From assembly GCF_016925495.1 (NCBI RefSeq), contig NZ_CP070491.1:124001-188000 (forward strand): a stretch of DNA of 64,000 nt, read 5' to 3'. The notes below the pieces were generated by a model. That model ran no database searches. It saw only the letters and a program-made list of their open reading frames with translations, and was not told where the DNA came from. The position numbers and the translations under genes were made by a program. Shown piece by piece: positions 8,366 to 64,000 of the stretch (position 1 is its first letter; each line of letters opens with the position of its first letter). Origin of the DNA: Methylococcus sp. EFPC2 (GTDB taxonomy: Bacteria > Pseudomonadota > Gammaproteobacteria > Methylococcales > Methylococcaceae).

Positions 8366-11263
8366 ATGAATAAGCAATTCAAATCCAACCCGCCGGCACA
8401 TCTACGCCGGACGGGTCTTCACTATGCACTCACCCCCATCATGCAGGGAATGCTGTTAGGACTTTCCACCTTCTCCGCTCATCCGGCCATGGCGGCCGGC
8501 AGCTATGCCGAATTGCAAGCCGAGAACGAAAGGCAGCGGCAGGAGATGGAACGACAGAGACTGGAAATGGAGCACCAGCGCGAAGAAATCGAAGCTCTCA
8601 AACGCCAGTTGCTGGGGCAGGCCAGACCCCAGACGGCCTCGCCGGCCGCCGAACCCGCCAACAATGCGGCTCAAAGCGAGGACGCGTTGAAAGTAAGCGA
8701 AGTCCCGCAAACCGCGAGCAGCGACGACGGAAGCGGCGCGACGCTGGGCGAAGTGGTGGTTAAACGGCGGAGCGTGCTGGAAAAACTGAAAGATACGCCC
8801 AAGTCGGTGTCCGTCGTCACCGGGCGGGAATTGGAAAAGTTTCAGGCCAACGATATGGCCAACATCCTTACGCGCATCGGCAGCGTCAAATGGCGTTCGA
8901 CCAATCCCCGCGAATCCAGCCTCAGCGTGCGCGGCATCGGCCATCTCGGTTCCGCTTCCACGGCGGCTGCCGAAGGTATGGATCCCAGCGTGGGCATAGT
9001 CGTCGACGGCGACAGTTATGCCTCGATCCCGCTGGCTTCGTCGGTGAGTTTTTCCGATCTGGAGTCGGTAGACGTGACGCGCGGGCCGCAAGGTGCTCAG
9101 GGCGGCATGCATTCGAGCGCCGCACGGATTTCCATCAAGACCCGGGCGCCGAGCTTTACCCCGGAGGCGGAAGCGTCCATCGGTTACGGCCAGTGGAATA
9201 CCTTGATCGCCAAGGCCGCCGCCGGCGGATCCATCTTCGACGGATTATTGGCCTGGCGCGGCAGCTTTCTCAGGGAGCAGGCCGACAGCCCCTTCGAGAA
9301 CGCTGCGCAGACGAATACTTATTTCAACAAGGACCGTACGTCCGGCCGATTGCAGTTCCTGCTGACGCCTACCGACAGTTTTACCGCTCGGGTCAAACTC
9401 GACTATACCCCGGCCGGAGGGGAATACGTGACCGGTCAGGCCGGGTTCTACAACCGGCCGACACCTGCATATTACGACAGCGTCGATGCGACGGGTCAGC
9501 GTATCGCGGTAAATCAGGCCAACGAGCCGGTAGGTAAGCTCAACCGCCGCTGGTTCAAGCAGGAGGCCAATTACACTTATGCCGGCAATTATTTGCGGCA
9601 AAGAATCGAGAAAAGTGTCGTATTACCGACCCTGAACAAGACGGAAGGAGCGGGTATCAACCTCGATTGGGATTTGGGCAGCCATACCCTGAGTTCGATC
9701 ACCGGTTTTCATAATTACTTCTTCGAATTCCAGTCGGGCCAGGCCACGGTATTCGATATCACTCGCCCGCCAACCGCCGGGAAAGCGCGCCAGCAGCAGG
9801 TGAGCCAGGAATTGAAAATCGCGTCGAAACCGGGCGGTTTAGTGGACTATCAGGTCGGTACTTATTATCTCAGTTTCAATCGCCAGCATTGGGGCACCAA
9901 TATACGCGGCGGTTCGGATGCCGGCGCCTATAACGCCAACGCAGCACAATATGCCCGCCTCGATGCCGACGGCAATGGCCGTTATTTGATGATCAATTCG
10001 CTGGATCGTCTGGTCACCGAAACCAAGAACGATTTCATGGGGGAAAGCCGGTCCATCTATGCCAATGCCGATTGGCATTTGTTCGAGCCTTTGACCGTCA
10101 ACAGCGGTTTGCGCCTGTCATGGGAGCATAGGCAGAACGTCCGATCCTCGATACGCATCGTCGATGAAGGTTATGGTGCCGAGTTGGATCCGTCGTCGAG
10201 GAACAATGTGCGGCTGGGCGGATTCAACAGCAATGCGAGCGGCAATCTGACCAGCAATAATGCCGCTCAGTTGGCGGTGGCGAATTTCGTGGCGCAGAAA
10301 TACTTCGGCATCGCCAATTATTCGGCATTGAACAACACGCAAAAACAGCAAGTGGCCGACGCCAAGGCGGTACGCCTGGCATCCATAGGCGGCTTGTACC
10401 AATCCACCGACGCGGAAGCGTTCGACGGGATGCTGCCGACCGTCAATATCAGTCCCAGCTATAAAATCACCGACAACCACACGACTTATTTCGCCTGGCA
10501 GCACGGCGAGAAAGCGGGGGTATCGCAAATCGTCGGTGCGACGCTCAACGGGGGCAAGACGTTCACGCTCAAGGAGGAAAAAACCGATTCCTACGAAATC
10601 GGTTTGAAATCGACGTTCTTCGATAAAACTCTGGCCATCAATACGACGGCATTCCTGCAGGACGTCAGCGATTACATACAGCCGATGTATTTCTACGACG
10701 AGGCGCAAACCATCGTCAATAATAACGGCTTATTGGCATATACCGCCGGTCTCGGCAATGTTCCCAAGGTCCAAGTCAAGGGTTTGGAATTGGATGCCAG
10801 CTATACCGGTTTGCCTTTTACCACGATACGTTTTGCCGGCGCTTACAACGATGCTCGCTACGAGGACTTCAAATTCAGCGCCAAACCCGCGGAGTTGGGA
10901 GGAACGGCGGTACCTTATTACGACGTCAGCGGAAGAACGTTGCCGGGCGCCGCGAAATTCACGTTCAACCTGTTCGCCGAATATGCCCGGCCGATATTCG
11001 ACGACAATGAGGTTCATGCGAACGTCAACTACAACTACACCAGTTCCTATAACCCGGATATCTCCTTGTCACGCTATACGGTGGTCGACGGTTATGGTTT
11101 GACCGATGTGGCGGTAGGCTTTGGACGCAGGGATAAACTGTTCGACGTGAATTTGATCGTCAGAAACCTGTTCGATACCAATTACGGGAATCTGTCGGTA
11201 TGGAACTCGTATAAGCCGAGCATACCGCGCTGGATAGGCGTCACGGTCAGTACCCAGCTTTAA
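8366..11263 (+). CDS. TonB-dependent outer-membrane receptor 1 with N-terminal coiled coil
   Basis: The receptor is 965 residues from the ATG at 8366, preceded by GCAGGA; the open frame runs further upstream without a signal peptide. A signal peptide ends near HPAMA (about 43). It is followed by a heptad-like coiled coil (AELQAENERQRQEMERQRLE onwards, about 48-85), an Ala/Pro/Gln linker, and a TonB-box-like LGEVVVKRR. The plug comes next (VSVVTGRELEKFQ, LSVRGIGHLG, VDVTRGPQGAQGG), then a barrel ending in VTVSTQL. It should import a scarce ligand across the outer membrane using TonB energy. The ligand cannot be read from sequence. Closeness to receptors 3 and 4 indicates local duplication. Confidence 0.88.
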   Translation: MNKQFKSNPPAHLRRTGLHYALTPIMQGMLLGLSTFSAHPAMAAGSYAELQAENERQRQEMERQRLEMEHQREEIEALKRQLLGQARPQTASPAAEPANNAAQSEDALKVSEVPQTASSDDGSGATLGEVVVKRRSVLEKLKDTPKSVSVVTGRELEKFQANDMANILTRIGSVKWRSTNPRESSLSVRGIGHLGSASTAAAEGMDPSVGIVVDGDSYASIPLASSVSFSDLESVDVTRGPQGAQGGMHSSAARISIKTRAPSFTPEAEASIGYGQWNTLIAKAAAGGSIFDGLLAWRGSFLREQADSPFENAAQTNTYFNKDRTSGRLQFLLTPTDSFTARVKLDYTPAGGEYVTGQAGFYNRPTPAYYDSVDATGQRIAVNQANEPVGKLNRRWFKQEANYTYAGNYLRQRIEKSVVLPTLNKTEGAGINLDWDLGSHTLSSITGFHNYFFEFQSGQATVFDITRPPTAGKARQQQVSQELKIASKPGGLVDYQVGTYYLSFNRQHWGTNIRGGSDAGAYNANAAQYARLDADGNGRYLMINSLDRLVTETKNDFMGESRSIYANADWHLFEPLTVNSGLRLSWEHRQNVRSSIRIVDEGYGAELDPSSRNNVRLGGFNSNASGNLTSNNAAQLAVANFVAQKYFGIANYSALNNTQKQQVADAKAVRLASIGGLYQSTDAEAFDGMLPTVNISPSYKITDNHTTYFAWQHGEKAGVSQIVGATLNGGKTFTLKEEKTDSYEIGLKSTFFDKTLAINTTAFLQDVSDYIQPMYFYDEAQTIVNNNGLLAYTAGLGNVPKVQVKGLELDASYTGLPFTTIRFAGAYNDARYEDFKFSAKPAELGGTAVPYYDVSGRTLPGAAKFTFNLFAEYARPIFDDNEVHANVNYNYTSSYNPDISLSRYTVVDGYGLTDVAVGFGRRDKLFDVNLIVRNLFDTNYGNLSVWNSYKPSIPRWIGVTVSTQL

Positions 11264-11797
11264 GCGTAAACACCTTGCGATCGAAACTCTCACGGCCGAG
11301 TTCGCGAGTAGTTCCTGCCCCTGCCCGGCGTATTCGCGCCTGGTAGTCCAAGCAGCCCGTAGCCGGGAGTTTCGACGCCTATTCCCCCCACAATGCCGGG
11401 CATCATTTGGATATATCCATTTCGTCCGGCGTTTCCTTTCGGCTGTTTTCTTAGGTGCATACGCTGCACGCGCCATGCCTCTTGAGCAGCTTGCGGCAAG
11501 ATTTAGGGTCGCGAATCAAGTGTTCCCGATCTGCAATTGCACGAAATCCCAGTTACGACCGGTCCGGCTTGCTGCATCGGGTATGCGCTTATCCCGCAAC
11601 GGGAAGGTGCGGCATGATAGTTGCCCTATTAGACACGCGTCCCGTCTACCAGCGTTTGTGGCAGTAAGCCCAGCGTATTTTGTGGTGGTTATAGGCAGGC
11701 CGACGGCGGTTTTCGATAGCGGGGAAAATGCGGTCTTCTCGGCTATGCCATGGGATGGATAAAGAGATTTTAAAGAAGGTTTATTAAGGATATAAAT
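11264..11797. other. Intergenic region between receptors 1 and 2
   Basis: This 534-base gap contains no convincing gene. The last 50 bases are AT-rich and carry the receptor 2 ribosome-binding site AAGGA at 11786-11790. A gap this long suggests that receptor 2 has its own promoter. I could not pick a reliable -35/-10 pair or a terminator for receptor 1. Confidence 0.4.
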
Positions 11798-14425
11798 ATG
11801 GATAGCACCGTGATATCAAAACCCGAAAAACGTCATTCTCATTTCCCCGTTACGATACCGTTTTCTAGGATCGTTGGGGGTATGCTGCTGGGATTTTCCG
11901 TCGTTTCAAATGCTCAGGCTTATGCGGCGGATGACGCACGCACCATCGCCGAGCTGAAAGCCGAGAACGAGGCCTTGAAGCGCTTGCTGCAATCGAAGAA
12001 CGCCGAGGAGCCGAAGACGCTGCCGCTAGCCCCTGTAGCGGCGCCGCCCGATCAGCAGGAGCAGTCCGGGCCGCTCGCAGCAGCCGGAGCGGACGGCTCC
12101 GCGACGCAAGGCGATGCGGAGGTCGACACTCTGAATGAGGTCGTGGTGACCGGCTCGCGCCAGACTGGCATCAAGGCGCGCGCCAGTGCTTCGCCGGTCA
12201 CCGTGATTTCTTCCAGCACATTGAAAGGAACCGGCCAGGTCAACCTGATCGACGCGCTCAACAAGCTCGAGCCGTCGTTTTATGTGCCGGCGCGCAGCGG
12301 AGACGTGGGCAATTTGACCCGACAAGTGCAGCTGCGCCAACTGGGGCCGAACCAGACCTTGGTGCTCATCAACGGCAAGCGCCGGCACTCCACGGCCATC
12401 GTCAATGCCTCGGGCACCTTCGCCGGCGCCACCGCGGTAGATCTCGCTCAGATACCGGTTTCCGCCATCGACCATGTCGAAATCCTCAAAGACGGCGCGG
12501 CCGCGCAGTACGGCACCGACGCTATCGCGGGCGTGGTCAACATCATCTTGAAGTCGGCCAACCATGGGGGCTCGGTGACGGTGGGCTATGGACGCTACGA
12601 CCAGAGCGACGTCAATCCGCAAAGCAAGGACAACGGCCAGACCGAGAATGTCGCGGTAAACGGCGGGTTCAAGCTGGGCGATGCCGATCAGGGTTTTTTG
12701 AACCTGAGCGCGGAATGGACGGACAAGGATTACACCAATAATTCCGGCCAGCATCCCACCATCAAGGCCGCCAATATTCCCAGTCCGGGATGGGTGAACC
12801 GCATCGCCGGCGAGCCGGCTTACCAGCTTTACGATCTGGGATTCAATGCCGGATTCAAGCTGACCGACGACATCGAACTCTACGGCTTCGGCACGGCCGG
12901 TCACCGCAAGGCCGACGCCCAGCAGAACTTCCGGCGCTACAACCTGTTGCCGGCGGTCTACCCCACCGGTTTCGTGCCGACCATAGGCATAGAAGAAACG
13001 GATCTGGCACTCACCGCAGGTGCAAAAGGCGCTTTTCTGGGCGATGGACGGTGGGATTTCAGCAGCACTTACGGCCGCGACGACGCCGACATTATCGTGG
13101 AGCACTCGGCCAATCAGGGGCTGTATCGCGACAAGGGGTTCACCCCCACGAAGTTCGAGAACGGAACGTTCAAGAACAGCCAGTGGACCACCAACCTGGA
13201 TTTGACCAAGCCGGTCGACGTGGATTTTCTGCCCGCGCCTTTGAACGTCGCTGGCGGCGTGGAATTCCGCCGCGAGACCTATCAACTGATTGCCGGCGAT
13301 GCGGCGTCCCGCTACAAGGAGGGTTCGCAGGCCTTTCCCGGCTATCAGTTCAGCGACGCGCGCAACGAATCGCGGCATGTTGAAGCTATCTACGTCGAGC
13401 TGGGAACCAAATTCACCCCCGAATGGCAAACCTCACTCGCCGGCCGCTTCGAACATTACAGCGACGCCGGGGATACCGCCATCGGCAAGGGTTCGACCCG
13501 GTACGATTTCAATCCCCGCTTGGCCATACGCGGCACGGCCAGCTCGGGCTTCCGGGCGCCGACCCTGGCGGAGCAGAACTTTTCGGCCACCAACGTGAGC
13601 CCGAGTTTTTCCAATATCCAATTGGCGGTCAATTCACCCGCGGCCCAACTGCTTGGCGCCCCCGCCTTGAAGCCGGAAGAGTCGAGCAACTTCAGCGTGG
13701 GCTTGGTTTTCGAACCGATCCAGAAGGTTTACGCATCGCTCGATATCTACCAGATCAATATCTCCGACCGCATCGTCAATACCGGAAACCTGAACGGCCC
13801 GGCCGTGCGCAACGCTATCGCCGCCAACGGCATCTTTTTCCAGGGTTCGTCGGCCAATCTGAACTTCTTCACCAACGGGGTGGACACCCGCACGCGAGGG
13901 GTCGACGCCGCGGCGGATTGGGCTACGGAATTCGACGAGTACGGTCGCATCAAGTGGAATTTCACCGCGTCCTATATCGATACCAAGGTCACCGACATCA
14001 AGAACGCATCGGCCCAATTGGGCGGAGGCGCCTTGATTACCCCGGTGATCGTTTCGGGACTGGAAGACAGCAACCCGAAGTACAAGCTATCGCTCGCGGC
14101 GAATTATTTCATCAGCGACTGGAGCTTTAACGCGCGAGTGACGCATTACGGCGAGTCGTCGCAGCTGACGTCGGATGCTGGCACCGGCCTCGCCCCATTC
14201 ACCCGCAATACGATCAAGGACACGGCTCTGCTCGATCTTTCTGTCGGCTACGATCTCACGTCCAGCCTGAACTTCGTGGTGGGCGCCAACAACGTCTTCG
14301 ACACCCATCCCAACAAGACCAAGCCCATCACGCGGGGCTCGACCAACGCGGCCGTGTACCCGACCTTTTCGCCATACCCGGTTGATGGCGCGTTCTACTA
14401 CGCCAGGGCCACGTTCCACTATTGA
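11798..14425 (+). CDS. TonB-dependent outer-membrane receptor 2, different plug type, with N-terminal coiled coil
   Basis: This receptor has 875 residues and a ribosome-binding site (AAGGA) seven bases before the ATG. Its signal peptide ends near AQAYA. A coiled coil related to that of the neighbouring receptors follows (TIAELKAENEALKRLLQSK), then a TonB box region (LNEVVVTGSRQTG). The plug is of the siderophore/sugar-receptor type (VQLRQLGPNQTLVLINGKRR, VEILKDGAAAQYGTDAIAGV), and the last strand ends in ATFHY. Plug and barrel are clearly unlike receptors 1, 3 and 4, so only the N-terminal extension is shared. It carries the canonical C-terminal aromatic residue for BAM-dependent insertion. 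The ligand is unknown. Confidence 0.88.
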   Translation: MDSTVISKPEKRHSHFPVTIPFSRIVGGMLLGFSVVSNAQAYAADDARTIAELKAENEALKRLLQSKNAEEPKTLPLAPVAAPPDQQEQSGPLAAAGADGSATQGDAEVDTLNEVVVTGSRQTGIKARASASPVTVISSSTLKGTGQVNLIDALNKLEPSFYVPARSGDVGNLTRQVQLRQLGPNQTLVLINGKRRHSTAIVNASGTFAGATAVDLAQIPVSAIDHVEILKDGAAAQYGTDAIAGVVNIILKSANHGGSVTVGYGRYDQSDVNPQSKDNGQTENVAVNGGFKLGDADQGFLNLSAEWTDKDYTNNSGQHPTIKAANIPSPGWVNRIAGEPAYQLYDLGFNAGFKLTDDIELYGFGTAGHRKADAQQNFRRYNLLPAVYPTGFVPTIGIEETDLALTAGAKGAFLGDGRWDFSSTYGRDDADIIVEHSANQGLYRDKGFTPTKFENGTFKNSQWTTNLDLTKPVDVDFLPAPLNVAGGVEFRRETYQLIAGDAASRYKEGSQAFPGYQFSDARNESRHVEAIYVELGTKFTPEWQTSLAGRFEHYSDAGDTAIGKGSTRYDFNPRLAIRGTASSGFRAPTLAEQNFSATNVSPSFSNIQLAVNSPAAQLLGAPALKPEESSNFSVGLVFEPIQKVYASLDIYQINISDRIVNTGNLNGPAVRNAIAANGIFFQGSSANLNFFTNGVDTRTRGVDAAADWATEFDEYGRIKWNFTASYIDTKVTDIKNASAQLGGGALITPVIVSGLEDSNPKYKLSLAANYFISDWSFNARVTHYGESSQLTSDAGTGLAPFTRNTIKDTALLDLSVGYDLTSSLNFVVGANNVFDTHPNKTKPITRGSTNAAVYPTFSPYPVDGAFYYARATFHY

Positions 14426-53834: not shown

Positions 53835-54761
53835 TCAGCCGCCGATTCTTTCCATGACCACGGCGACCGCCGCGCTGCGGGTTTCCACCCCCAGCTTCTC
53901 GAATATATGTTCCAGATGCTTGTTCACCGTGCGAGGACTGCAGCCGAGGATCAGACCGATATCGCGGTTGGTCTTGCCGCGGGAGATCCACATGAGCACC
54001 TCGGTTTCCTTGAAGGTCAGCCCCAGGCTGCCGCGCACGGCGTCGATGTCCCAATCCGCTGACCGCCGTTGCAGCAATACCAGGTATTCCCCCGAGTTTT
54101 GGCAGGGTGCGATCGCGGCGGAGTAGCGGACTCCATCCCGCAATAGCGTGCAGATTTCCGGCGCGGCGGCATCGCAGCGCATCTCCCGCCTGGCCCAATC
54201 ATGCAGCGGCGCCGGCAGGACACCGGCCAAGCCGTCGCGGTCGCCGGCCAGGTCGTGCAGATATTGCGCGGCTTCCGCCGTGAGCCACGTGATCCCGGCG
54301 TTCGCGTCGACGGCGAGGGCGGCGAATCCGCCTTGCGACAAGGCCTGCTCCGCCCGTTGCGCGGCCCGCGCCTGGGTGAGTTGAGCGCCGACGCGGGCCA
54401 GCACCTCCTCGTTGCGGAAGGGCTTGACGATGTAATCCACGGCGCCTTCGTTGAAGCCGCGCAACAAATTGTCCAGATCGCTCAAGGCGGTCATGAACAG
54501 TATGGGAATGCGCCGGGTCGCGGGATTCAGCTTGAGCCGGCGGCAGGTCTCGAAGCCGTCCATGCCCGGCATGATGCCGTCCAGCAGGATGATGTCGGGC
54601 GTCGCGTAGGCCAGTTGTTCCAGCGCGGAAATCCCGTCGGTGGCGATCAGCACCCGATAGCCGGCTTCCTGCAGGGCGTCCGACAGCAGGGCGAGATTGC
54701 CCGGCGCATCGTCGACGATCATCACCGTGCCCGGGCCGTTCGCGGAAGAGAAGCTGCTCAT
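53835..54761 (-). CDS. Response regulator with receiver, PAS-like linker and LuxR-type output
   Basis: The 308-residue protein has a receiver domain with D17-D18 and phosphoacceptor Asp61 (PDIILLDGIMPGMDG), then a middle region that looks PAS-like (FAALAVDANAGITWLTAEAA). The C-terminal LuxR helix-turn-helix reads LGLTFKETEVLMWISRGKTNRDIG onwards (about 245-300). The ATG at 54761 overlaps the stop of the hybrid kinase gene by four bases, so they are a cognate pair. The neighbouring urea transport genes suggest that these are its targets. No DNA-binding site was identified. Confidence 0.88.
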   Translation of the reverse strand: MSSFSSANGPGTVMIVDDAPGNLALLSDALQEAGYRVLIATDGISALEQLAYATPDIILLDGIMPGMDGFETCRRLKLNPATRRIPILFMTALSDLDNLLRGFNEGAVDYIVKPFRNEEVLARVGAQLTQARAAQRAEQALSQGGFAALAVDANAGITWLTAEAAQYLHDLAGDRDGLAGVLPAPLHDWARREMRCDAAAPEICTLLRDGVRYSAAIAPCQNSGEYLVLLQRRSADWDIDAVRGSLGLTFKETEVLMWISRGKTNRDIGLILGCSPRTVNKHLEHIFEKLGVETRSAAVAVVMERIGG

Positions 54762-57700
54762 CCCGCACCGAGCAATTGCTTGATGTCGGCCAGCCGGAAT
54801 GCCTTCGCCATGCCCTGTACCCGCATGGCGAAGGGCAGATAGGCGAAATCGTCCGCAGCCAGTCGCTGGAGATGGTCGGTCAGGCCGCGCAAGTCGCCGA
54901 TGCGGGCATATTTGGCGAGTTGCGCGAGCTCCGCCGCTGGCGGCATGAGGAGGGGCGCGACCGCTTCGGAGCGGGCGGGCGCCGGCGCCGAGCCGTGGCC
55001 GATCCAGTCCAGACTCAGGTGCAGACGGATCTTGGCGAGCAATTCGCCGATTTGCAGCGGCTTGGCGATGAAATCGTCGCATCCGGCGGCCAGGGCGCGT
55101 TTGCGATCCGTCGCGTAGGCCTTGGCGCTGACCACGACGATGGGCGCCGCGTAACCGGACTGTCGCAGCTTCCGCGCCACCTCGGTGCCGTGCAGGTCGT
55201 CCAGTTGCAGGTCCAGCAGGATCAGATCCGGCGGTTCCAGTGCCGTCAACGCCAGGCAGCGCCGTCCGGATTCCGCCTCGCTCAGCACAAAACCCAGTGG
55301 CTCCAGGACCGAGCGGAGCAGGGTGCGCTGTTCGCCTTGGTCGTCGACCACCAGTATGCGCCTCCGGCGTCCCGAGTAGCCGGCGATGTGCTCTTCTTCC
55401 GGGCTTTCCACCGCCAGCAGGTCCGGCAGAAACATTTTCACCCTGAAGGTGCTTCCCTGTCCGGGCACGCTCTTCACGCTGAGCTCGCCGCCCATGATTT
55501 CGGTGAGTATCTTGCTGATGGTCAGGCCCAAGCCGCTGCCGGAAACCGCGTTGCCCCGTCCCCCGCGCAGGCGGCTGAAAGGTTGGAAGATGGCGTCGAA
55601 GGCGTCCTCGGGTATGCCTTCGCCGCTATCGGCGACCTCGAACACGGCGACTTCGCCGCCATAGCCGACGCGTAGCACCACCTCGCCGGTCCGGGTGAAC
55701 TTGATCGCGTTTTGCAGCAGGTTGATCAGCACCTGGCCGATGCGCTTTTCGTCCCCGCGTATGCGCCGGGGCAGGCGGTCGGAAACCTGGCAACGGAACG
55801 CCAGCCCCTTGGCTTCCGCCTGCGGCTTGAACATGCGGATCAGATGGTCGAGCAAGGCGGGAAGATTCACGGGTTCGCGCTTGAGGTCGAATTTGCGCGC
55901 CTCGATGCGGGCGATGTCCAGGATGTCCTCGATCAGCTGGGACAGGTGTTCGCCGCTGCGCTCGATGATGTCGACCGCTTCGCGCCGGTGCGGCGGGATG
56001 GCGGCGTCTTTTTTCATCAATTGCGCGTAACCCAGGATGCTGTTCAAGGGAGTGCGGAATTCGTGGCTCATGTCGCTGAGGAAACGGCTCTTGGCCCGAT
56101 TGGCCCGGTCTGCCAAAGCCATGGTTTCCTTGAGTTTCGCATCCGTCTTGCCATGCTCGGCTATCTCCTTGAGCAACAGCCGGGTTTGCCGGGTCGATTC
56201 CTCCTGGGCCACGTGGCGGCTTTCGTTGTTGAGCACCAGCCACCAGGTACCCAGCCCCAGGAATACCAACAAGCAAGCGATGACCTTGACATAGCTTCCG
56301 TACAGCACGGCGGCCATAGGTGCGTTACCCAAAGCCAGGATGTCCTGGTAATAAATCACGCCCACGAACACGCCCGTCACCGCGGCCAGCAGCAGATAAA
56401 CCAGGGTGTACTTGAGCATGCGCAGCTTCAGCGCGGCGCTCACGCCGATCCAGCCGAGCCAGCGTTTGGCGAACTGGCGCAACTGGTCGTCCAGCCGCGC
56501 GTTGGGCTTGCAACTGTCGAGACAGCGGGCGTCCAGACTGCAGCACAGCGAGCAGATGTTGCCCTGATAGGTCGGGCAATAAGCCTTGTCCTCCGCCTCG
56601 AAGGTGTTGCCGCAGATGCAACAGCCGGCATCCGTCACCGCGCTTTCGCGCGCCGCCCGGTCGGGCACCAGATAATGCTGTCCGCGCGTAATCCGGGCGA
56701 TCACCGGGGCGAGCAGAAAGGCGATGCCCAGGGCGAGAAAGGGCGAAAACGCCTGGGCGGTAGTGCCGAACGCGCCGAGAAAGGCGGCGATGGATATGAC
56801 CGAAGCGGCCAGGGTCGACACCACGCCCACCGGATTGATGTCCGGCAGATAGGCGCGCTTGAATTCGACCAGGGGCGGGCTCAGTCCCAGCGGCTTGTTG
56901 ACGACCAGATCGGCCACCACCGCGCCGATCCAGGCGATCGCCACGTTGGAGAACAGGCCGAGCACGCGCTCCAGTGCGCCGAACAGGCCGAGCTCCATCA
57001 GCAGCAGCGCGATCATCACGTTGAACACCAACCACACCACGCGGCCCGGATGGCTGTGGGTCAGGCGGGAAAAGAAGTTCGACCAGGCCAGCGAGCCGGC
57101 ATAGGCATTGGTCACGTTGATCTTGATCTGCGAGATCACCACCAGCAGGGTGGTGGCCGCCATGGCCCATTCCGGCTGGCCCAGGAGGTCCAGGTAGGCG
57201 GCCAGATACATCTGGGTCGGCTCGTGGGCATGCTCGACCGGCACGCCGCTTTGTATGGCCAGGTAGGCCAGCAGCGCGCCACCCAACTGGCGCGCCATGC
57301 CCATGACCACCCAGCCCGGACCGGCCAGGATGGTTGCGGTCCACCAGCGCCCGCGGTTGGCCGGGGTCTTGTCCGGCAGAAAGCGCAGAAAATCCACCTG
57401 TTCGCCGATCTGCGCCACCATGGAGAAGGCCACGGTCGCCGCCGCCCCGAACTTCAGCCAGTCGAATTCCGCCGGATGCGCGCCGTGTCCGCCGAAAGCG
57501 GCGAGTCCGGCCAGGGCTTGCGGATCCCTGTGGAATACCGCCCAGTAGGGCGCTATCAGCAGCAGCAGCCAGACCGGCTGGGTCCATAGCTGCAGGCGAT
57601 TGATGTTGGTGATGCCGTAAGTCACCAGGGGAATGATGACCAGCGCGCTCACCAGGTGGGCGACGGCGAGGGGGATGCGGAAATACATCTCCAGCGCCAG

Positions 57701-58150
57701 GGACATGATGGAGGCCTCGAGCGCGAACAGGGTGAAGGTGAAGGCGGCATAGATCAGCGAGGTCAGGGTCGAGCCGATATAGCCGAAACCGGCGCCGCGC
57801 GTGAGCAAGTCCATGTCCACGTGGTGGCGGGCGGCGTAATAGGCGATAGGAAAGCCGGTGAGGAACACGATCAGGCCCACCGCGAGGATGGCCCAGCAGG
57901 CGTTGGTGAAACCGTAGCTGAGGGTCAGCGCCCCGCCGATCGCCTCCAGAACCAGGAAGGACACCGAGCCGAAGGCGGTATTGGCGACGCGGAATTCCGA
58001 CCATTTGCGGAACGACCGGGGCGCGTAGCGCAAGGCGTAGTCTTCCAGGGTTTCGTTGGCGACCCAGGTGTTGTAGTCGCGGCGGATCTTGGCGATGGAT
58101 TGTTGGCTATGGTTTCCCACGCTTAGGTTCCCGTGTGGGTCGTGAGGCAT
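54758..58150 (-). CDS. NCS1 permease fused to hybrid sensor histidine kinase
   Basis: The 1130-residue protein carries a transporter and a kinase in one chain. Residues 20-490 are an NCS1-type nucleobase permease with about 12 hydrophobic helices. A Cys-rich stretch (Cys 510, 511, 513, 525, 533, 536, 537, 543, 547) follows, then two more helices (about 580-600 and 615-640), a HisKA domain with His696 (SDMSHEFRTPLNSI), and an HATPase domain (NLLQNAIKF 810-818, DSGEG 841-845). A receiver with Asp980 (DLILLDLQLDD) and a C-terminal helical piece end it. It may sense a transported ligand such as urea, a purine or a pyrimidine. Adjacency to the urt genes and a LuxR-type regulator points to control of nitrogen-compound uptake. 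This function is inferred. Confidence 0.9.
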   Translation of the reverse strand: MPHDPHGNLSVGNHSQQSIAKIRRDYNTWVANETLEDYALRYAPRSFRKWSEFRVANTAFGSVSFLVLEAIGGALTLSYGFTNACWAILAVGLIVFLTGFPIAYYAARHHVDMDLLTRGAGFGYIGSTLTSLIYAAFTFTLFALEASIMSLALEMYFRIPLAVAHLVSALVIIPLVTYGITNINRLQLWTQPVWLLLLIAPYWAVFHRDPQALAGLAAFGGHGAHPAEFDWLKFGAAATVAFSMVAQIGEQVDFLRFLPDKTPANRGRWWTATILAGPGWVVMGMARQLGGALLAYLAIQSGVPVEHAHEPTQMYLAAYLDLLGQPEWAMAATTLLVVISQIKINVTNAYAGSLAWSNFFSRLTHSHPGRVVWLVFNVMIALLLMELGLFGALERVLGLFSNVAIAWIGAVVADLVVNKPLGLSPPLVEFKRAYLPDINPVGVVSTLAASVISIAAFLGAFGTTAQAFSPFLALGIAFLLAPVIARITRGQHYLVPDRAARESAVTDAGCCICGNTFEAEDKAYCPTYQGNICSLCCSLDARCLDSCKPNARLDDQLRQFAKRWLGWIGVSAALKLRMLKYTLVYLLLAAVTGVFVGVIYYQDILALGNAPMAAVLYGSYVKVIACLLVFLGLGTWWLVLNNESRHVAQEESTRQTRLLLKEIAEHGKTDAKLKETMALADRANRAKSRFLSDMSHEFRTPLNSILGYAQLMKKDAAIPPHRREAVDIIERSGEHLSQLIEDILDIARIEARKFDLKREPVNLPALLDHLIRMFKPQAEAKGLAFRCQVSDRLPRRIRGDEKRIGQVLINLLQNAIKFTRTGEVVLRVGYGGEVAVFEVADSGEGIPEDAFDAIFQPFSRLRGGRGNAVSGSGLGLTISKILTEIMGGELSVKSVPGQGSTFRVKMFLPDLLAVESPEEEHIAGYSGRRRRILVVDDQGEQRTLLRSVLEPLGFVLSEAESGRRCLALTALEPPDLILLDLQLDDLHGTEVARKLRQSGYAAPIVVVSAKAYATDRKRALAAGCDDFIAKPLQIGELLAKIRLHLSLDWIGHGSAPAPARSEAVAPLLMPPAAELAQLAKYARIGDLRGLTDHLQRLAADDFAYLPFAMRVQGMAKAFRLADIKQLLGAG

Positions 58151-58404: not shown

Positions 58405-59223
58405 CTATTTCCGTTCGTAGCCGAACTCCAGAATGATCGGGCTGCCCTGGTTGTGGATGATCATTTGCTTGCGGGTTTCACCTTGCTTCGTTTCGGTCCG
58501 CAGCGGCGGGTTTAGGTTATCCGAGGGTTGCTCCGCCGGTCGGGGCCACCCGCCGGTGGCCGGGGACGATGCGGGTGGGGGAGTGGATCCTTGGTCGGTG
58601 ACCTCGATGCGCACTTCCGGAAACCAGGTGCCCGTCGAGCCGCTTGGGGTGATCTGCGGGTCCGGCCGGCGGTGGCGGATCTTCAATTCGCCGAGGAGGT
58701 TGAAGCAGGTCGTGCCGATGTGGTCGACGTAGGCGTCGAACAGCGCTTGTTCGCCCTTGGCGCGAGCGCCTCGCTTGAGCACCTCGTCGGCGACGAAGGG
58801 CTCCTTGAGATAGGCGTTTTCCGTCGGGCGTCGAATGGCGCGCAGGGTGCAGACGACGGTCACCACCTCCGCCTTCTGGAAGCCCCGTGCCCGCGGGTCC
58901 GAGTCGCCGACGCTGAAAGAAAAGCCGGTGGGCGTGCCGCCACTTTCCACCGCGCCGACTTTCGCCTCCATGACATGGCTGTGATCGACGGATGCATCGG
59001 TCGTGACCGGATAACCCCACGCGGCGAGGTTGCCGCTTATTGCGGCGGCCAGCTTGTCGGCATCGAGCCGGGAGCCGCGCTCGGACAGGTTTTCCGGCGG
59101 CAGGCGCAAGAGGATGCGGCCTACCGTTTCGGGCCGGGGAGGCGAGCCCTCCGGTTTTAGCCCCGCGGCACAGCCGGTCAAGAGGAGGCCCGACGCCAGC
59201 GGCAACAGCCATCGCGTGTTCAT
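58405..59223 (-). CDS. Putative lipoprotein of unknown function
   Basis: The 272-residue product has a lipoprotein signal (LLPLASGLLLTGCAAG, lipobox LTGC with Cys near 18). The rest is not recognised. It includes an early beta-rich part (GRILLRLPPENLSERGSRLD), a helix-rich middle and a Pro/Ser/Thr-rich segment near 215-240. It ends with a beta-like GSPIILEFGYERK. It lies between the kinase and the urea porin on the opposite strand from the latter, and its link to urea uptake is unknown. It may be attached to the outer membrane. Confidence 0.75.
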   Translation of the reverse strand: MNTRWLLPLASGLLLTGCAAGLKPEGSPPRPETVGRILLRLPPENLSERGSRLDADKLAAAISGNLAAWGYPVTTDASVDHSHVMEAKVGAVESGGTPTGFSFSVGDSDPRARGFQKAEVVTVVCTLRAIRRPTENAYLKEPFVADEVLKRGARAKGEQALFDAYVDHIGTTCFNLLGELKIRHRRPDPQITPSGSTGTWFPEVRIEVTDQGSTPPPASSPATGGWPRPAEQPSDNLNPPLRTETKQGETRKQMIIHNQGSPIILEFGYERK

Positions 59224-59468: not shown

Positions 59469-60701
59469 ATGAAAAACGCAAACTTAGTCAACCGGCGGAC
59501 GGAGAACGGGCGCACGGTCGCCGTCGCGCTGGCGCTCGGGCTGCTGGCCGGCACGGGCTACGGGCCGGAATCGCAGGCCGGGGCTACCTTCAAGATCGAC
59601 GACACCAAGTGGGTGAGCGTAGGCGCGGGCCTGCGCACCAGCTTCACCACCACCGAAGAGGCCGCCCATGCCGGCAAGTGGAGCAACGACTTCAGCCTGG
59701 ACAATATCCGTCTTTATCTGAACGGCCAGATCCACAAATATCTCAAGCTGGAATTCAACACCGACTGCCAGACTTGCAGCAACGGCGGCGAGGTGCGGGT
59801 GCTGGATGCGATCGCCAAGTTCGAGTACGAGCCCTGGTTCAATGTCTGGGCCGGCCGCATGCTGGTGCCGGCAGAGCGGCGCGAGATGAACGGTCCGTTC
59901 TACAGCGCGGTGTACAACGTCTTCGGCGCCGGCACGCCGTTCGAGCCGGCCGACTTCAACCTGACCATCAAGTCCGACGGTACCTCCGCCGGCTCTTTCG
60001 GCCGCGACGACGGCGCGACCCTCTGGGGTTCGGTGTTCGGCGGCCGCTTCCAATACGCAGCGGGTTTCTTCCGTGGTCTGCGCGGCGGGGCCAACCGGGA
60101 CGACAACATCCTCTACGCCCAGCGCTTTGCGCTCAACTTCCTCGACGTCGAGAAAAATCCCGGCTACTACACCTCCGGCACCTACTACGGCAAGGGCGGC
60201 GATATCCTGACCCTGGCCGTTTCCAATCAATACCAGGAAGACGGCGCCGGTACCGTCGAGGACCAGGGACAATTCCGCGGCACCTCGGTCGACGTGCTGT
60301 ACGAGCAAAACCTGCCCGACAACTGGGGCGTGGTAACGGTCAACGGCGAATACAAGAACTACGGCATCAAGGGTTACGGCATGGCCTCACGTCTGGCCGG
60401 CGGCGGGTTCGCCATGTTCGAGGGCAACGCGTACGACGTCAGCGGCATGTACCTGATTCCCGAGAAAATCGGCATCGGACAATTCCAGCCTTACCTCCGC
60501 TACGTGAACGTCGCGCCGGTGGCCAGCCCGACGCGCGACGTCTACGAAGCCGGCCTCAATTACATCATCGACGGCCACAATGCCAAGGTCATGCTGTTTT
60601 ATGAATACGGCGACCTGTTGACCAAGGGGCTGGACTACAGCAGCAGCGCTTCCGGCGACCGCGTTTCGTCCATCAAGCTGGGTTTCCAGTTGCAGATCTA
60701 A
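59469..60701 (+). CDS. Outer-membrane porin upstream of urtA, probable urea/amide porin
   Basis: The 410-residue protein has a signal peptide (AVALALGLLAGTGYGPESQA) and a beta-barrel pattern of alternating strands (WVSVGAGLRTSFTTTEE, NIRLYLNGQIHKYLKLEFN), ending in SIKLGFQLQI. In other bacteria a porin of the FmdC (short-chain amide/urea) type is often encoded just before urtA. The position 28 bases before urtA supports that reading. A pair of cysteines in NTDCQTCSNGG at about 99-102 is unusual for a porin and may form a disulfide. It likely lets urea through the outer membrane. Confidence 0.78.
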   Translation: MKNANLVNRRTENGRTVAVALALGLLAGTGYGPESQAGATFKIDDTKWVSVGAGLRTSFTTTEEAAHAGKWSNDFSLDNIRLYLNGQIHKYLKLEFNTDCQTCSNGGEVRVLDAIAKFEYEPWFNVWAGRMLVPAERREMNGPFYSAVYNVFGAGTPFEPADFNLTIKSDGTSAGSFGRDDGATLWGSVFGGRFQYAAGFFRGLRGGANRDDNILYAQRFALNFLDVEKNPGYYTSGTYYGKGGDILTLAVSNQYQEDGAGTVEDQGQFRGTSVDVLYEQNLPDNWGVVTVNGEYKNYGIKGYGMASRLAGGGFAMFEGNAYDVSGMYLIPEKIGIGQFQPYLRYVNVAPVASPTRDVYEAGLNYIIDGHNAKVMLFYEYGDLLTKGLDYSSSASGDRVSSIKLGFQLQI

Positions 60702-60729: not shown

Positions 60730-62025
60730 ATGAAGAAGTTCAGCCTGCGTCATTTCGGCCTGCTGGCCGCCTGCGGCCTGTTCGCCGCCACGCTCGCGTC
60801 CACCGCCCGCGCCGAAGGCACCATCAAGGTCGGCGTCCTGCACTCGCTGTCGGGCACCATGGCCATCAGCGAAACCACCTTGAAAGACACCGTGTTGATG
60901 CTGATAGATGAGCAGAACAAGAAAGGCGGCCTGCTCGGCAAGAAGCTGGAGCCGGTGGTGGTGGACCCGGCTTCGAATTGGCCGCTGTTCGCGGAGAAGG
61001 CCCGCGAGCTGCTGCAGAAGGAAAAAGTGGCCGCCATATTCGGCTGCTGGACCTCGGTTTCGCGCAAGTCGGTGCTGCCGGTGGTCGAGGAACTGAACGG
61101 CCTGCTCTTCTACCCGGTGCAATACGAGGGCGAGGAATCGTCCAAAAACGTGTTCTACACCGGCGCCGCGCCCAACCAGCAGGCCATCCCGGCGGTGGAT
61201 TACCTGATGAACGACCTCAAGGTGAAGCGTTGGGTGCTGGCCGGAACGGACTACGTCTACCCGCGCACCACCAACAAGATTCTTGAGGCCTACCTGAAAT
61301 CCAAGGGCGTGAAAGACAAGGACATCCTGATCAATTACACGCCCTTCGGCCATTCGGACTGGCAGAGCATCGTGGCCGACATCAAGAAATTCGGCTCGGC
61401 CGGCAAGAAGACGGCGGTGGTGTCCACCATCAACGGCGACGCCAACGTGCCTTTCTACAAGGAACTGGGCAACCAGGGCATCGCCGCCGACAAGATCCCG
61501 GTGGTCGCATTCTCGGTCGGCGAGGAGGAGCTCTCCGGCATCGACACCAAGCCCCTGGTCGGCCATCTGGCCGCCTGGAATTACTTCATGAGCGTCGACA
61601 CGCCGGCGAATGCCGCCTTTATCACCCAGTGGCAGAAATTCATCAAGAATCCCAAGCGGGTGACCAACGACCCCATGGAGGCGCATTACATCGGCTTCAA
61701 CATGTGGGTGAAGGCGGTGGAGAAGGCCGGCACCACCGAGACCAACGCGGTGGAGAAAGCCTTGATCGGGACCGAGTTTCCCAATTTGACCGGCGGGGTG
61801 GCGAAGATGAACAAGGCGCATCACCTCTCCAAGCCGGTGCTGATCGGCGAAATCCAGGAGGACGGCCAGTTCCAGACCGTCTGGCAGACCAAGGGCCTGG
61901 TCGACGGCGACGCCTGGTCGGACTATCTGCCGGAGAGCAAGCCCATCATCGCCGACTGGACCCCGCCCATCAGCTGCGGCAACTACAACACCAAGACAAA
62001 GAAATGCTCGGGGCAGAAATACTGA
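60730..62025 (+). CDS. urtA: Urea ABC transporter substrate-binding protein
   Basis: UrtA, a 431-residue periplasmic binding protein of the branched-chain amino acid (HAAT) type. The signal peptide ends near STARA. Family-typical segments are VLHSLSGTMAISETTLKD, AAIFGCWTSVSRKSVLPVVE, NGLLFYPVQYEGEESS and the C-terminal WTPPISCGNYNTKTKKCSG. It captures urea for the UrtBCDE permease and ATPases; urtB and the start of urtC follow in the window. A GGAG ribosome-binding site precedes the ATG. Confidence 0.96.
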   Translation: MKKFSLRHFGLLAACGLFAATLASTARAEGTIKVGVLHSLSGTMAISETTLKDTVLMLIDEQNKKGGLLGKKLEPVVVDPASNWPLFAEKARELLQKEKVAAIFGCWTSVSRKSVLPVVEELNGLLFYPVQYEGEESSKNVFYTGAAPNQQAIPAVDYLMNDLKVKRWVLAGTDYVYPRTTNKILEAYLKSKGVKDKDILINYTPFGHSDWQSIVADIKKFGSAGKKTAVVSTINGDANVPFYKELGNQGIAADKIPVVAFSVGEEELSGIDTKPLVGHLAAWNYFMSVDTPANAAFITQWQKFIKNPKRVTNDPMEAHYIGFNMWVKAVEKAGTTETNAVEKALIGTEFPNLTGGVAKMNKAHHLSKPVLIGEIQEDGQFQTVWQTKGLVDGDAWSDYLPESKPIIADWTPPISCGNYNTKTKKCSGQKY

Positions 62026-62270: not shown

Positions 62271-63914
62271 ATGTTATTGCTAACGACACGAATGCGCCGC
62301 TGGCTGGCGGGGCTGCTGTGGGCCCTGAGCCTGCATGCCGCCCACGCGGTGCCGGTGGAGGCGCCGGAACTGACAGCGGCCTTGACGCGGCTGAAGGATG
62401 CGCCGCTCGCCGAACTGGGCGATGCGGTGCAGGTCGTGGCCGCTATCCGCGACGACCGCGTACCGGGCTTGCTCAAGGCTTTGCTGGAAGGCCGGCTCTA
62501 TGCGGTCAAGGCCGACGGCCGGGTCGTCTACGCGACGCCGGCGGACGAGGGCTATGCCGTCAGCGACGCCTTGAGCGGGCAAAGCCTGGGTAGCAAAGGG
62601 CGCTTCGAGGTGAAGAAGATCGCCATCAACAACACGGTCAGAAATTCGCTCAACGGACTCATCGCCCGGCTGGAACTGAGTGTGGACGATCCCGCCCAGC
62701 GTCTGAAAGCGGTCGAAGCGATGAGTCAGAGCGCGGACGCAGCGGCCATCGAGTTGCTGCGCAAGCAGTTCGAAGTGGAAGCGGATCCCAAGGTGCGCGG
62801 AGCCCTCGTCCTCGCCCTGGCCTTGGCGGACATCGCCGGTGCAGACAAGGAAAAGCGGCTGGTGGCTATCCGCAGCCTGGAAGGCACGCTCGACCAGGAA
62901 GCGCGCAACCGGCTGAACGCGCTGGTCGAAAAGGACGACGAAGGCGAATACCTGGAATCGGATGAGGATATCCGCAACGCCGCCCTGGCCGTGATCAAGC
63001 ACATCGAGTTTGAACTGCAGCTCAACCGGCTGGCGGAAACCCTGTTCTTCGGCTTGAGCCTGGGTGCCGTGCTGGTGCTGGCGGGCATAGGCCTGGCCAT
63101 CACCTTCGGCGTGATGGGCGTGATCAACATGGCGCACGGCGAGCTGATGATGATAGGGGCGTATACGACCTACGTGGTACAGCGGCTGCTGCCGGATCAC
63201 CTGGATGTTTCCCTGTTCGTCGCGATTCCCGCGGCCTTCCTGATCTCCGGCCTGGTCGGCATCGCCATCGAGCGCGGCATCATACGCTTCCTCTACGGCC
63301 GGCCGCTGGAAACCTTGCTGGCCACCTTCGGCGTGAGCCTGTTCTTGCAGCAATCGGTGCGTTCGATCTTTTCCCCGCTCAACCGCAGCGTATCCACGCC
63401 GGCCTGGATGAGCGGTTCGGTGGAGATCAACCACGCGCTGGCGTTTACCCTCAACCGCTTCTACATCGTCGTGTTCAGCCTGCTGGTATTCGTCGCCTTG
63501 CTGGCGATCCTCAAACGCACCCGCCTGGGCCTGGAAGTGAGGGCCGTCGCGCAGAACCGTTCGATGGCCAGGGCCATGGGCATACCGACGGACCGGGTCG
63601 ACGCGCTGACCTTCGGGCTCGGCTCGGGCATCGCCGGGGTGGCCGGCGTGGCGCTCAGCCAACTCACCAACGTGGGACCCAATCTGGGCCAGTCCTATAT
63701 CGTTGACTCGTTCATGGTGGTGGTGTTCGGCGGGGTGGGAAATCTGTGGGGTACGCTGGTCGGCGGCATGTCGCTGGGCCTGGTCAACAAGCTGCTGGAA
63801 CCCTACGCCGGTGCGGTGCTGGCCAAGATCATCATCCTGGTTTTCATCATCCTGTTCATCCAGAAGAAGCCGCGCGGATTGTTTCCGCAGAAAGGCCGGG
63901 CGGCGGAGGGTTAG
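62271..63914 (+). CDS. urtB: Urea ABC transporter permease UrtB
   Basis: This 547-residue product has a signal-like N-terminus (LLWALSLHAAHA) and a periplasmic-looking helical extension to about residue 250. The membrane domain that follows has about eight helices, containing GIGLAITFGVMGVINMAHGELMMIGAY and VFGGVGNLWGTLVGGM. The extended N-terminal domain is typical of proteobacterial UrtB and distinguishes it from LivH. It works with UrtA and UrtC. A GGAGGATG ribosome-binding region lies just before the ATG. Confidence 0.94.
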   Translation: MLLLTTRMRRWLAGLLWALSLHAAHAVPVEAPELTAALTRLKDAPLAELGDAVQVVAAIRDDRVPGLLKALLEGRLYAVKADGRVVYATPADEGYAVSDALSGQSLGSKGRFEVKKIAINNTVRNSLNGLIARLELSVDDPAQRLKAVEAMSQSADAAAIELLRKQFEVEADPKVRGALVLALALADIAGADKEKRLVAIRSLEGTLDQEARNRLNALVEKDDEGEYLESDEDIRNAALAVIKHIEFELQLNRLAETLFFGLSLGAVLVLAGIGLAITFGVMGVINMAHGELMMIGAYTTYVVQRLLPDHLDVSLFVAIPAAFLISGLVGIAIERGIIRFLYGRPLETLLATFGVSLFLQQSVRSIFSPLNRSVSTPAWMSGSVEINHALAFTLNRFYIVVFSLLVFVALLAILKRTRLGLEVRAVAQNRSMARAMGIPTDRVDALTFGLGSGIAGVAGVALSQLTNVGPNLGQSYIVDSFMVVVFGGVGNLWGTLVGGMSLGLVNKLLEPYAGAVLAKIIILVFIILFIQKKPRGLFPQKGRAAEG

Positions 63915-63917
63915 GCG

Positions 63918-64000
63918 ATGGGCATTGCGAAATTGCTGGAAAACGATCCGGGCGGCCGCTGGTTTCTGGCCACTCTGGCCCTGGTCGCGGTGTTACTTCC
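63918..64000 (+). CDS. urtC: Urea ABC transporter permease UrtC, 5' part only
   Basis: The ATG lies three bases after the urtB stop (GGCG) and encodes GIAKLLENDPGGRWFLATLALVAVLL before the window ends. The position after urtB and the early hydrophobic stretch fit UrtC. Only 27 codons are visible, so the name depends on gene order. Confidence 0.75.
   Translation, partial: MGIAKLLENDPGGRWFLATLALVAVLL

Follow-up and report, generated by a model that had tools for sequence, protein, structure and literature searches.

A permease-like domain fused to a hybrid histidine kinase beside the urea transporter genes of Methylococcus sp. EFPC2 is a probable sensor of urea and short amides

Introduction

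We know of few transporter-fused kinases with a known ligand. A 64,000-nucleotide stretch of the Methylococcus sp. EFPC2 genome (NZ_CP070491.1, positions 124,001 to 188,000; hereafter the window) carries a transporter-like domain fused to a histidine kinase next to the genes of a urea ABC transporter, which raises the question of what this receptor senses and which genes it controls. The initial annotation described a nucleobase permease fused to a hybrid kinase and suggested urea or a purine or pyrimidine breakdown product as the ligand. Here we follow up this proposal by comparing domains, pocket residues, genomic neighbourhoods and upstream regions across relatives of the kinase.

Results

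Architecture of the kinase and its locus

The kinase is encoded by an open frame on the minus strand; on the plus strand, frame 1 across 54758-58150 is interrupted by stops. The features of the kinase and its regulator are:

53835..54761, minus strand: LuxR/NarL-type response regulator, 308 aa, receiver-LuxR, starting inside the kinase stop with a 4-base overlap (ATGA)
54758..58150, minus strand: fused sensor kinase, 1130 aa, stop codon at 54758-54760
55025..55357, minus strand: receiver (Response_reg, Pfam), residues 932-1042, Asp980 at 55211-55213
55430..55756, minus strand: HATPase_c (Pfam), residues 799-907
55898..56095, minus strand: HisKA (Pfam), residues 686-751, phosphoacceptor His696 at 56063-56065
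56222..56437, minus strand: two extra hydrophobic stretches before HisKA, residues ~572-643, from hydropathy and a low-confidence model
56504..56626, minus strand: eight-cysteine segment, residues 509-549 (C510, 513, 525, 533, 536, 537, 543, 547)
56687..58051, minus strand: NCS1-related permease domain, residues 34-488, from a weak NCBIfam match, profile-profile comparison and alignment

His696, Asp980 and the ATP-site residues examined are all present and invariant in 35/35 aligned receiver-bearing rows. With HisKA, HATPase and receiver recognised by Pfam in the same frame, the protein encoded at 54758-58150 is a hybrid histidine kinase, as had been proposed. Pfam recognised no Hpt domain in it, including the tail after the receiver. 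This tail (residues ~1072-1130) is helical and modelled with fair confidence (~79), and residues 1064-1129 are poorly conserved (24%). Where AmsS has 14 predicted helices (see below), the membrane segments of the window kinase overlap and merge in the hydropathy profile. Mean pLDDT was 37 and 44 in two AlphaFold models built with four sequences, most of the membrane part scoring below 50, and the pocket was therefore read from alignments. The initially described fusion of a transporter-like domain to a hybrid kinase holds, on the minus strand and with two additional elements that had been overlooked: the cysteine segment and the two hydrophobic stretches.

The genes upstream of the kinase are:

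58405..59223, minus strand: lipoprotein-like protein, 272 aa, between kinase and porin; related proteins (40%) in the corresponding position of L009 and L011
59313..59330, no strand: candidate operator ATACGTCATTTGACTGAT, ~140 bases before the porin start, best match of the matrix in the window
59469..60701, plus strand: porin-like protein with weak similarity to ExtI (67 bits, cut-off 150)
60730..62025, plus strand: UrtA, urea ABC transporter binding protein (580 bits, cut-off 493)
62271..63914, plus strand: UrtB permease (429 bits, cut-off 250)
63918..64000, plus strand: urtC, first 27 codons (363 aa in the genome)

The four-base overlap with the regulator was confirmed, its start at 54761 falling within the kinase stop. 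Porin, urtA, urtB and urtC do adjoin the pair as annotated, but they occupy the plus strand and point away from the kinase, with the lipoprotein-like gene in between, and urtC only begins in the window. Outside the window, urtC is followed by urtD, urtE, ureD, ureA, ureB, ureC and ureG. A search of the same genome for a PF03069 formamidase found none at E ≤ 1e-20. The porin-like protein shares 33% identity with the product of a gene next to urtA in Methylosinus OB3b. In Methylotetracoccus and Methylolobus, relatives of the lipoprotein-like gene occupy the equivalent place; the candidate operator falls into the gap between this gene and the porin.

The permease-like domain is a distant relative of NCS1

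Curated models place the domain below the NCS1 cut-offs (Pfam, NCBIfam). No Pfam transporter family matched kinase residues 1-660 even at E ≤ 10, TIGR00800 is absent from the NCBIfam matches of the window kinase, and the match to CodB (cytosine permease; residues 37-217, E 8e-7) scores 28 bits against a cut-off of 326. Profile-profile comparison detects the relation: 36 fused sequences aligned by hhalign to 12 NCS1-like proteins with a probability of 97.8% (E 1e-12, 386 columns), while the controls gave 7.1% (fused set versus SSF), 0.2% (fused set versus NCS2) and 12.6% (NCS1 versus SSF). These sets hold only proteins of 380-700 residues (12/13 for NCS1, 25/25 and 21/25 for the control sets), and 1 of the 13 source matches of the NCS1 set exceeds the curated NCS1 cut-off. 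A 43-sequence profile that includes four outgroup permeases matched only NCS1 structures in the PDB (CodB 3.7e-8, Mhp1 1.8e-4); a HMMER profile of the 36 fused sequences alone matched no PDB chain, and a PDB search with the window permease alone returned no match.

In Mhp1, we take W117 and W220 to be the aromatic residues that stack on the substrate and S312/T313 to be the Ser/Thr of the Na+ site. The two tryptophans align with residue 141 (F in 31, L in 6 of 37) and residue 244 (L in 34, M in 2, F in 1); the placement of residue 244 is that of hhalign, and the Mhp1 alignment from the PDB profile search shifts this second position by a few residues. Gln121 of Mhp1 aligns with Glu145, Asn318 with Asn348 and Ser312/Thr313 with Lys343/Ile344, and all four kinase residues are invariant in 37/37 fused and 3/3 stand-alone rows. 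By alignment, the aromatic sandwich and the Na+-site hydroxyls are thus replaced at the corresponding pocket positions. Permease core and cysteine segment match HisKA in conservation and exceed the receiver: among the 35 receiver-bearing rows, mean pairwise identity is 59% in the permease core, 67% in the cysteine segment, 59% in HisKA and 39% in the receiver.

Judged from profiles and alignments, the domain is a distant NCS1 relative and not a canonical member. It resembles CodB and Mhp1 in profile but differs from these NCS1 permeases in scoring below the cut-offs, in the replaced sandwich and Na+-site residues and in its fusion to a kinase. The labels "nucleobase permease" and "complete NCS1" could accordingly not be upheld.

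The segment that follows the permease core keeps all eight cysteines in 37/37 aligned fused proteins and in a stand-alone relative from Methylovirgula (560 aa), whereas two Acinetobacter stand-alone relatives keep only C510, 513, 533 and 536. C510/513 and C533/536 form a CxxC-CxxC pair as in zinc ribbons, and the segment may bind metal.

Relatives of the kinase lie among urea and amide genes

The sensor part was matched in 42 of 299 Pseudomonadota genomes (E ≤ 1e-5). We counted a fused kinase in 38 of these, leaving out three weak matches (G038, G175, G194) and a fragment (G236); four genomes hold two copies, giving 42 fused loci including the window. Because of these 42 copies in 38/299 genomes, the fusion is genuine and no accident of assembly. 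Close relatives (71-75%) come from Methylotetracoccus, Methylolobus and a Methylococcaceae MAG; the first two share the arrangement of the window, and the MAG contributes a 3.3-kb contig. In a plasmid collection, 530 records matched the sensor part, with no less than 80% of the query covered in 509, and 342 of the 530 are from Klebsiella. Fourteen plasmid records, picked by hand for variety, were inspected, and 12 carry a fused kinase. No relative of the sensor was found in viral contigs. In the one Klebsiella plasmid record inspected (L123), the kinase and urtABCDE-formamidase genes stand alongside drug-resistance genes.

Besides the window, 39 of 41 loci have urtA (33), FmdA formamidase (28) or urease (7) nearby, in stretches of up to 20 kb. 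The exceptions are L154, whose kinase is ~360 bases from the end of its contig, and L172, a 4.8-kb contig, both located at contig ends. A similar regulator stands beside the kinase in 39/41 loci, in two pieces in L133 and L134; no clear regulator was found beside the kinase in L167 and L169. The fused kinases of these two loci are shorter (885 and 879 aa) and come without receiver or operator, yet near formamidase. Ten of the 12 plasmid loci have urea or amide genes nearby; in the stretches examined around the A. baumannii (L119) and Tistrella (L126) copies we found no urtA, FmdA or urease. The gene tables of 11 annotated plasmid contexts, which are incomplete, list no gene for purine or pyrimidine breakdown. 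Since the loci are related, counts of loci are not independent.

Co-occurrence across genomes points the same way. PF03069 matched in 39 of 299 genomes (E ≤ 1e-20), near full length in 30 (E ≤ 1e-150). The kinase is present in 29 of these 30 and in 9 of the 269 others (Fisher p 3e-31, ignoring relatedness); one of the nine genomes with shorter PF03069 matches (G107) also has it. UrtA (E ≤ 1e-100) occurs in 37/38 kinase genomes versus 89/261 others (p 9e-15, likewise ignoring relatedness). On a quick tree of the sensor, with several long branches and context labels set by hand, the neighbourhood changes between urea-type and amide-type six times, at least four of them forced by well-supported branches. 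The common factor would therefore be a small amide.

Stand-alone permeases with the same pocket were found at a urease operon in Acinetobacter lwoffii and facing the kinase in A. baumannii. The former, a 535-aa protein of the kinase's permease family annotated as hypothetical (L130:9950-11554, on a plasmid), precedes ureE, F, G, a HupE/UreJ gene, ureD and ureA-C, and is a candidate urea permease. A stand-alone outgroup permease from Rhodococcus (31%) adjoins hydantoinase genes.

An inverted repeat shared by most kinase loci

Most kinase loci share the inverted repeat ATACGTC-N4-GACGTAT. We compared 43 regions, namely 41 divergent regions (from the kinase to urtA, ureA or formamidase) and two from the window. 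The commonest dyad, ATACG-N8-CGTAT, is exact in 18 of them; in 20 simple shuffles the top dyad attained counts of 2-3. At least 8 of the 10 dyad positions are matched in 36/41 regions versus 52/820 shuffled ones. A matrix was built from 34 distinct sites, excluding the window and L009-L011. Its best match in the 64-kb window (17.7 bits) lies upstream of porin-urtA, the next reaching 11.8 bits, and 1 of 60 simulated windows reached 17.7 bits anywhere. The fuller matrix is needed for this: with two mismatches, the plain seed pattern occurs in the window no more often than expected (15 observed versus 15 expected).

In nine of 15 held-out loci (the window, L009, L011, L119, L126, L154, L162, L165 and L166), porin, urtA, permease or kinase is preceded by a site scoring 17 bits or more. 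The independent cases are fewer, because L009 and L011 nearly duplicate each other and the training set includes close relatives of L154, L162, L165 and L166. No strong operator was found in L129, L164, L167, L169 and L170 (complete) or in L172 (truncated). Of the training loci that were scanned over their full length, L127, L159 and L171 yielded no site scoring more than 10 bits. In the Tistrella plasmid locus, which holds a kinase-regulator pair, a 27-bit operator lies upstream of the kinase.

Site positions bear on the target genes. In L162, L165 and L166, and more weakly in L140 (16.4 bits), the site precedes urtA away from the kinase; the first three favour direct control of urtA. The site before urtA in L121 (12.8 bits) is no better than chance. 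Sites precede both formamidase and an aliphatic amidase in L122, and a second site precedes formamidase in L133. A 15.6-bit match at the ureG start in L180 lies inside coding sequence and was not counted. With up to three mismatches, the consensus occurs at two places in the Methylococcus genome (the window site and C1:961954; one in the reversed-pattern control). Conservation beside the kinase-regulator pairs suggests that the LuxR-type regulator binds the repeat.

AmsS/StkS of Acinetobacter

The A. baumannii record encodes a fused homologue of the window kinase (51% over residues 4-660), a hybrid kinase (10016-13480) whose LuxR-type partner starts at 13477, again a 4-base overlap. A 3.66-Mb A. 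baumannii record in the plasmid collection (NZ_CP077849.1) is filed as a plasmid and looks chromosome-sized. For AmsS, a receiver and 14 predicted membrane helices have been described, without an Hpt domain and with a 4-base overlap with AmsR; the same paper equates StkSR with AmsSR (PMC10112286, available text). Because sensor homology, hybrid kinase, LuxR-type partner and 4-base overlap all match, AmsS/StkS very probably belongs to the family of the window kinase. The A. baumannii copy differs in the urea and amide genes missing from its examined stretch and in facing a stand-alone relative of its own permease domain.

Between this stand-alone permease and the kinase lies a 27-bit site, and we therefore predict the permease to be a target of AmsR. 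The exact pattern occurs at two places in the record (one in a control), in this gap and inside a coding frame; the latter is presumably arginyl-tRNA synthetase-like and its site likely a chance match. The available text of PMC10112286 reports that A. baumannii amsSR responds to CCCP and that mutants have an altered membrane potential. The words "permease", "symporter", "NCS1" and "urea" do not occur in the main texts of PMC10112286 and PMC9146086, nor does "amide" in that of the former.

Discussion

We consider it probable that the kinase and its regulator form a two-component system that responds to urea or short amides and controls the acquisition of urea and amides. This reading is favoured because 39/41 neighbourhoods hold urea or amide genes, FmdA and UrtA co-occur with the kinase, contexts switch on the sensor tree, candidate operators sit before uptake and amidase genes, same-pocket stand-alone permeases stand at a urease operon (A. 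lwoffii) and opposite the kinase (A. baumannii), and the aligned aromatic sandwich is replaced while Glu145 and Asn348 are invariant. It also gains from the fmdCABDEF genes of Methylophilus, which are reported to be induced by formamide and urea (PMC10781810, a review, and PMC5877670, both in part). We count against it the L119 and L126 loci without urea or amide genes, the loci without an operator, the fused-only profile that matches no solved structure, the low-confidence membrane models, and the AmsSR paper with its CCCP response and a main text free of "urea" and "amide". The previously noted link to the urea operon is backed by conserved neighbourhoods, co-occurrence and the common inverted repeat. 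Regarding the ligand, urea would fit the window genome and formamide or acetamide many relatives; the suggested purine or pyrimidine product fares worse, with the aligned sandwich absent and no breakdown genes named in the 11 annotated contexts.

In mechanistic terms, a small amide (urea; in relatives probably also formamide) would bind the permease-like pocket. Segment order and conservation suggest a route for the conformational change, via the cysteine segment and the two extra helices, to a signalling helix and the kinase. Phosphate would then reach the overlapping LuxR-type regulator, directly or via the kinase's own receiver, and the regulator, binding the conserved repeat, would switch on the porin-urtABCDE-urease genes, a target set that is based on gene order and site position.

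Three other signals have to be weighed. As suggested for AmsS, the permease part might sense the proton gradient or redox state, with the cysteine segment as a redox or zinc switch. We regard this as unlikely: it is in line with the CCCP response and the altered membrane potential of A. baumannii mutants (PMC10112286, available text), with the eight invariant cysteines and with a lysine at the aligned Na+ site, but leaves unexplained why urea and amide genes recur beside the kinase and why stand-alone permeases have the same pocket residues.

Ranked below it, and very unlikely in our judgement, is a sensor of purine or pyrimidine breakdown products (allantoin, hydantoin, uracil) in which the urea genes would represent the end of the pathway. 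The sandwich missing from the alignments and the 11 annotated contexts speak against it, as does formamidase, present in 29/38 kinase genomes and to our knowledge not part of purine breakdown; the distant NCS1 relation and the Rhodococcus outgroup permease beside hydantoinase genes speak for it.

Least credible is sensing of intracellular nitrogen status, such as ammonia, with the urea link reflecting general nitrogen control: nitrogen-supplying genes do surround nearly all copies and ammonia is reported to repress the fmd genes in Methylophilus (PMC10781810, in part), but such a sensor could do without a conserved transporter-like pocket (59% mean identity) and would not be expected to track formamidase so closely.

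Among known systems, the kinase joins CbrA, CrbS and KsAmt5 as a further variety of transporter-fused kinase. The SLC5-STAC kinases CbrA and CrbS, the latter a hybrid kinase acting through CrbR, likewise join a transporter domain to a kinase, and CbrA, a LeuT-fold transporter-kinase that uses protons, bears a lysine in the Na2 site (Lys196; PMC13022988, in part), comparable by alignment to Lys343 of the window kinase. They differ in their SLC5/SSF transporter and STAC domain; hhalign (7.1%) and Pfam (no match) revealed no SSF relation of the window permease. KsAmt5 also uses the transporter domain of a nitrogen nutrient as a receptor but has the Amt fold and ammonium as ligand (PMC5764959, PMC8534201, both in part). 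Methylophilus fmdCABDEF is comparable in combining porin, amide/urea ABC uptake and formamidase; the available text of PMC10781810 and PMC5877670 describes no fused kinase there, and the window genome differs from it in having urease and no PF03069 formamidase at E ≤ 1e-20. A hybrid kinase and a LuxR regulator beside a second urtABCDE set are reported in the accessible part of PMC13296017. In the literature that we searched, which leaves most subscription journals uncovered, we found no NCS1-type kinase and no urea or amide ligand of one.

More tentatively, and with some doubt on our side, a branch of NCS1 may have become a urea/small-amide receptor of Pseudomonadota: a proton-coupled transceptor (Lys343) with an eight-cysteine metal relay, whose stand-alone sisters would be unrecognised secondary urea/amide permeases. 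If this holds, Acinetobacter AmsS would be a urea or amide sensor.

For the family, which spans 38/299 Pseudomonadota genomes and whose sensor part also matches plasmid records, Klebsiella foremost (342/530 matching records), ligand class, target genes and candidate operator are here predicted jointly. It gives AmsS/StkS a signal that experiments can probe, and makes it possible to ask if transporter-like receptors have kept their transport activity.
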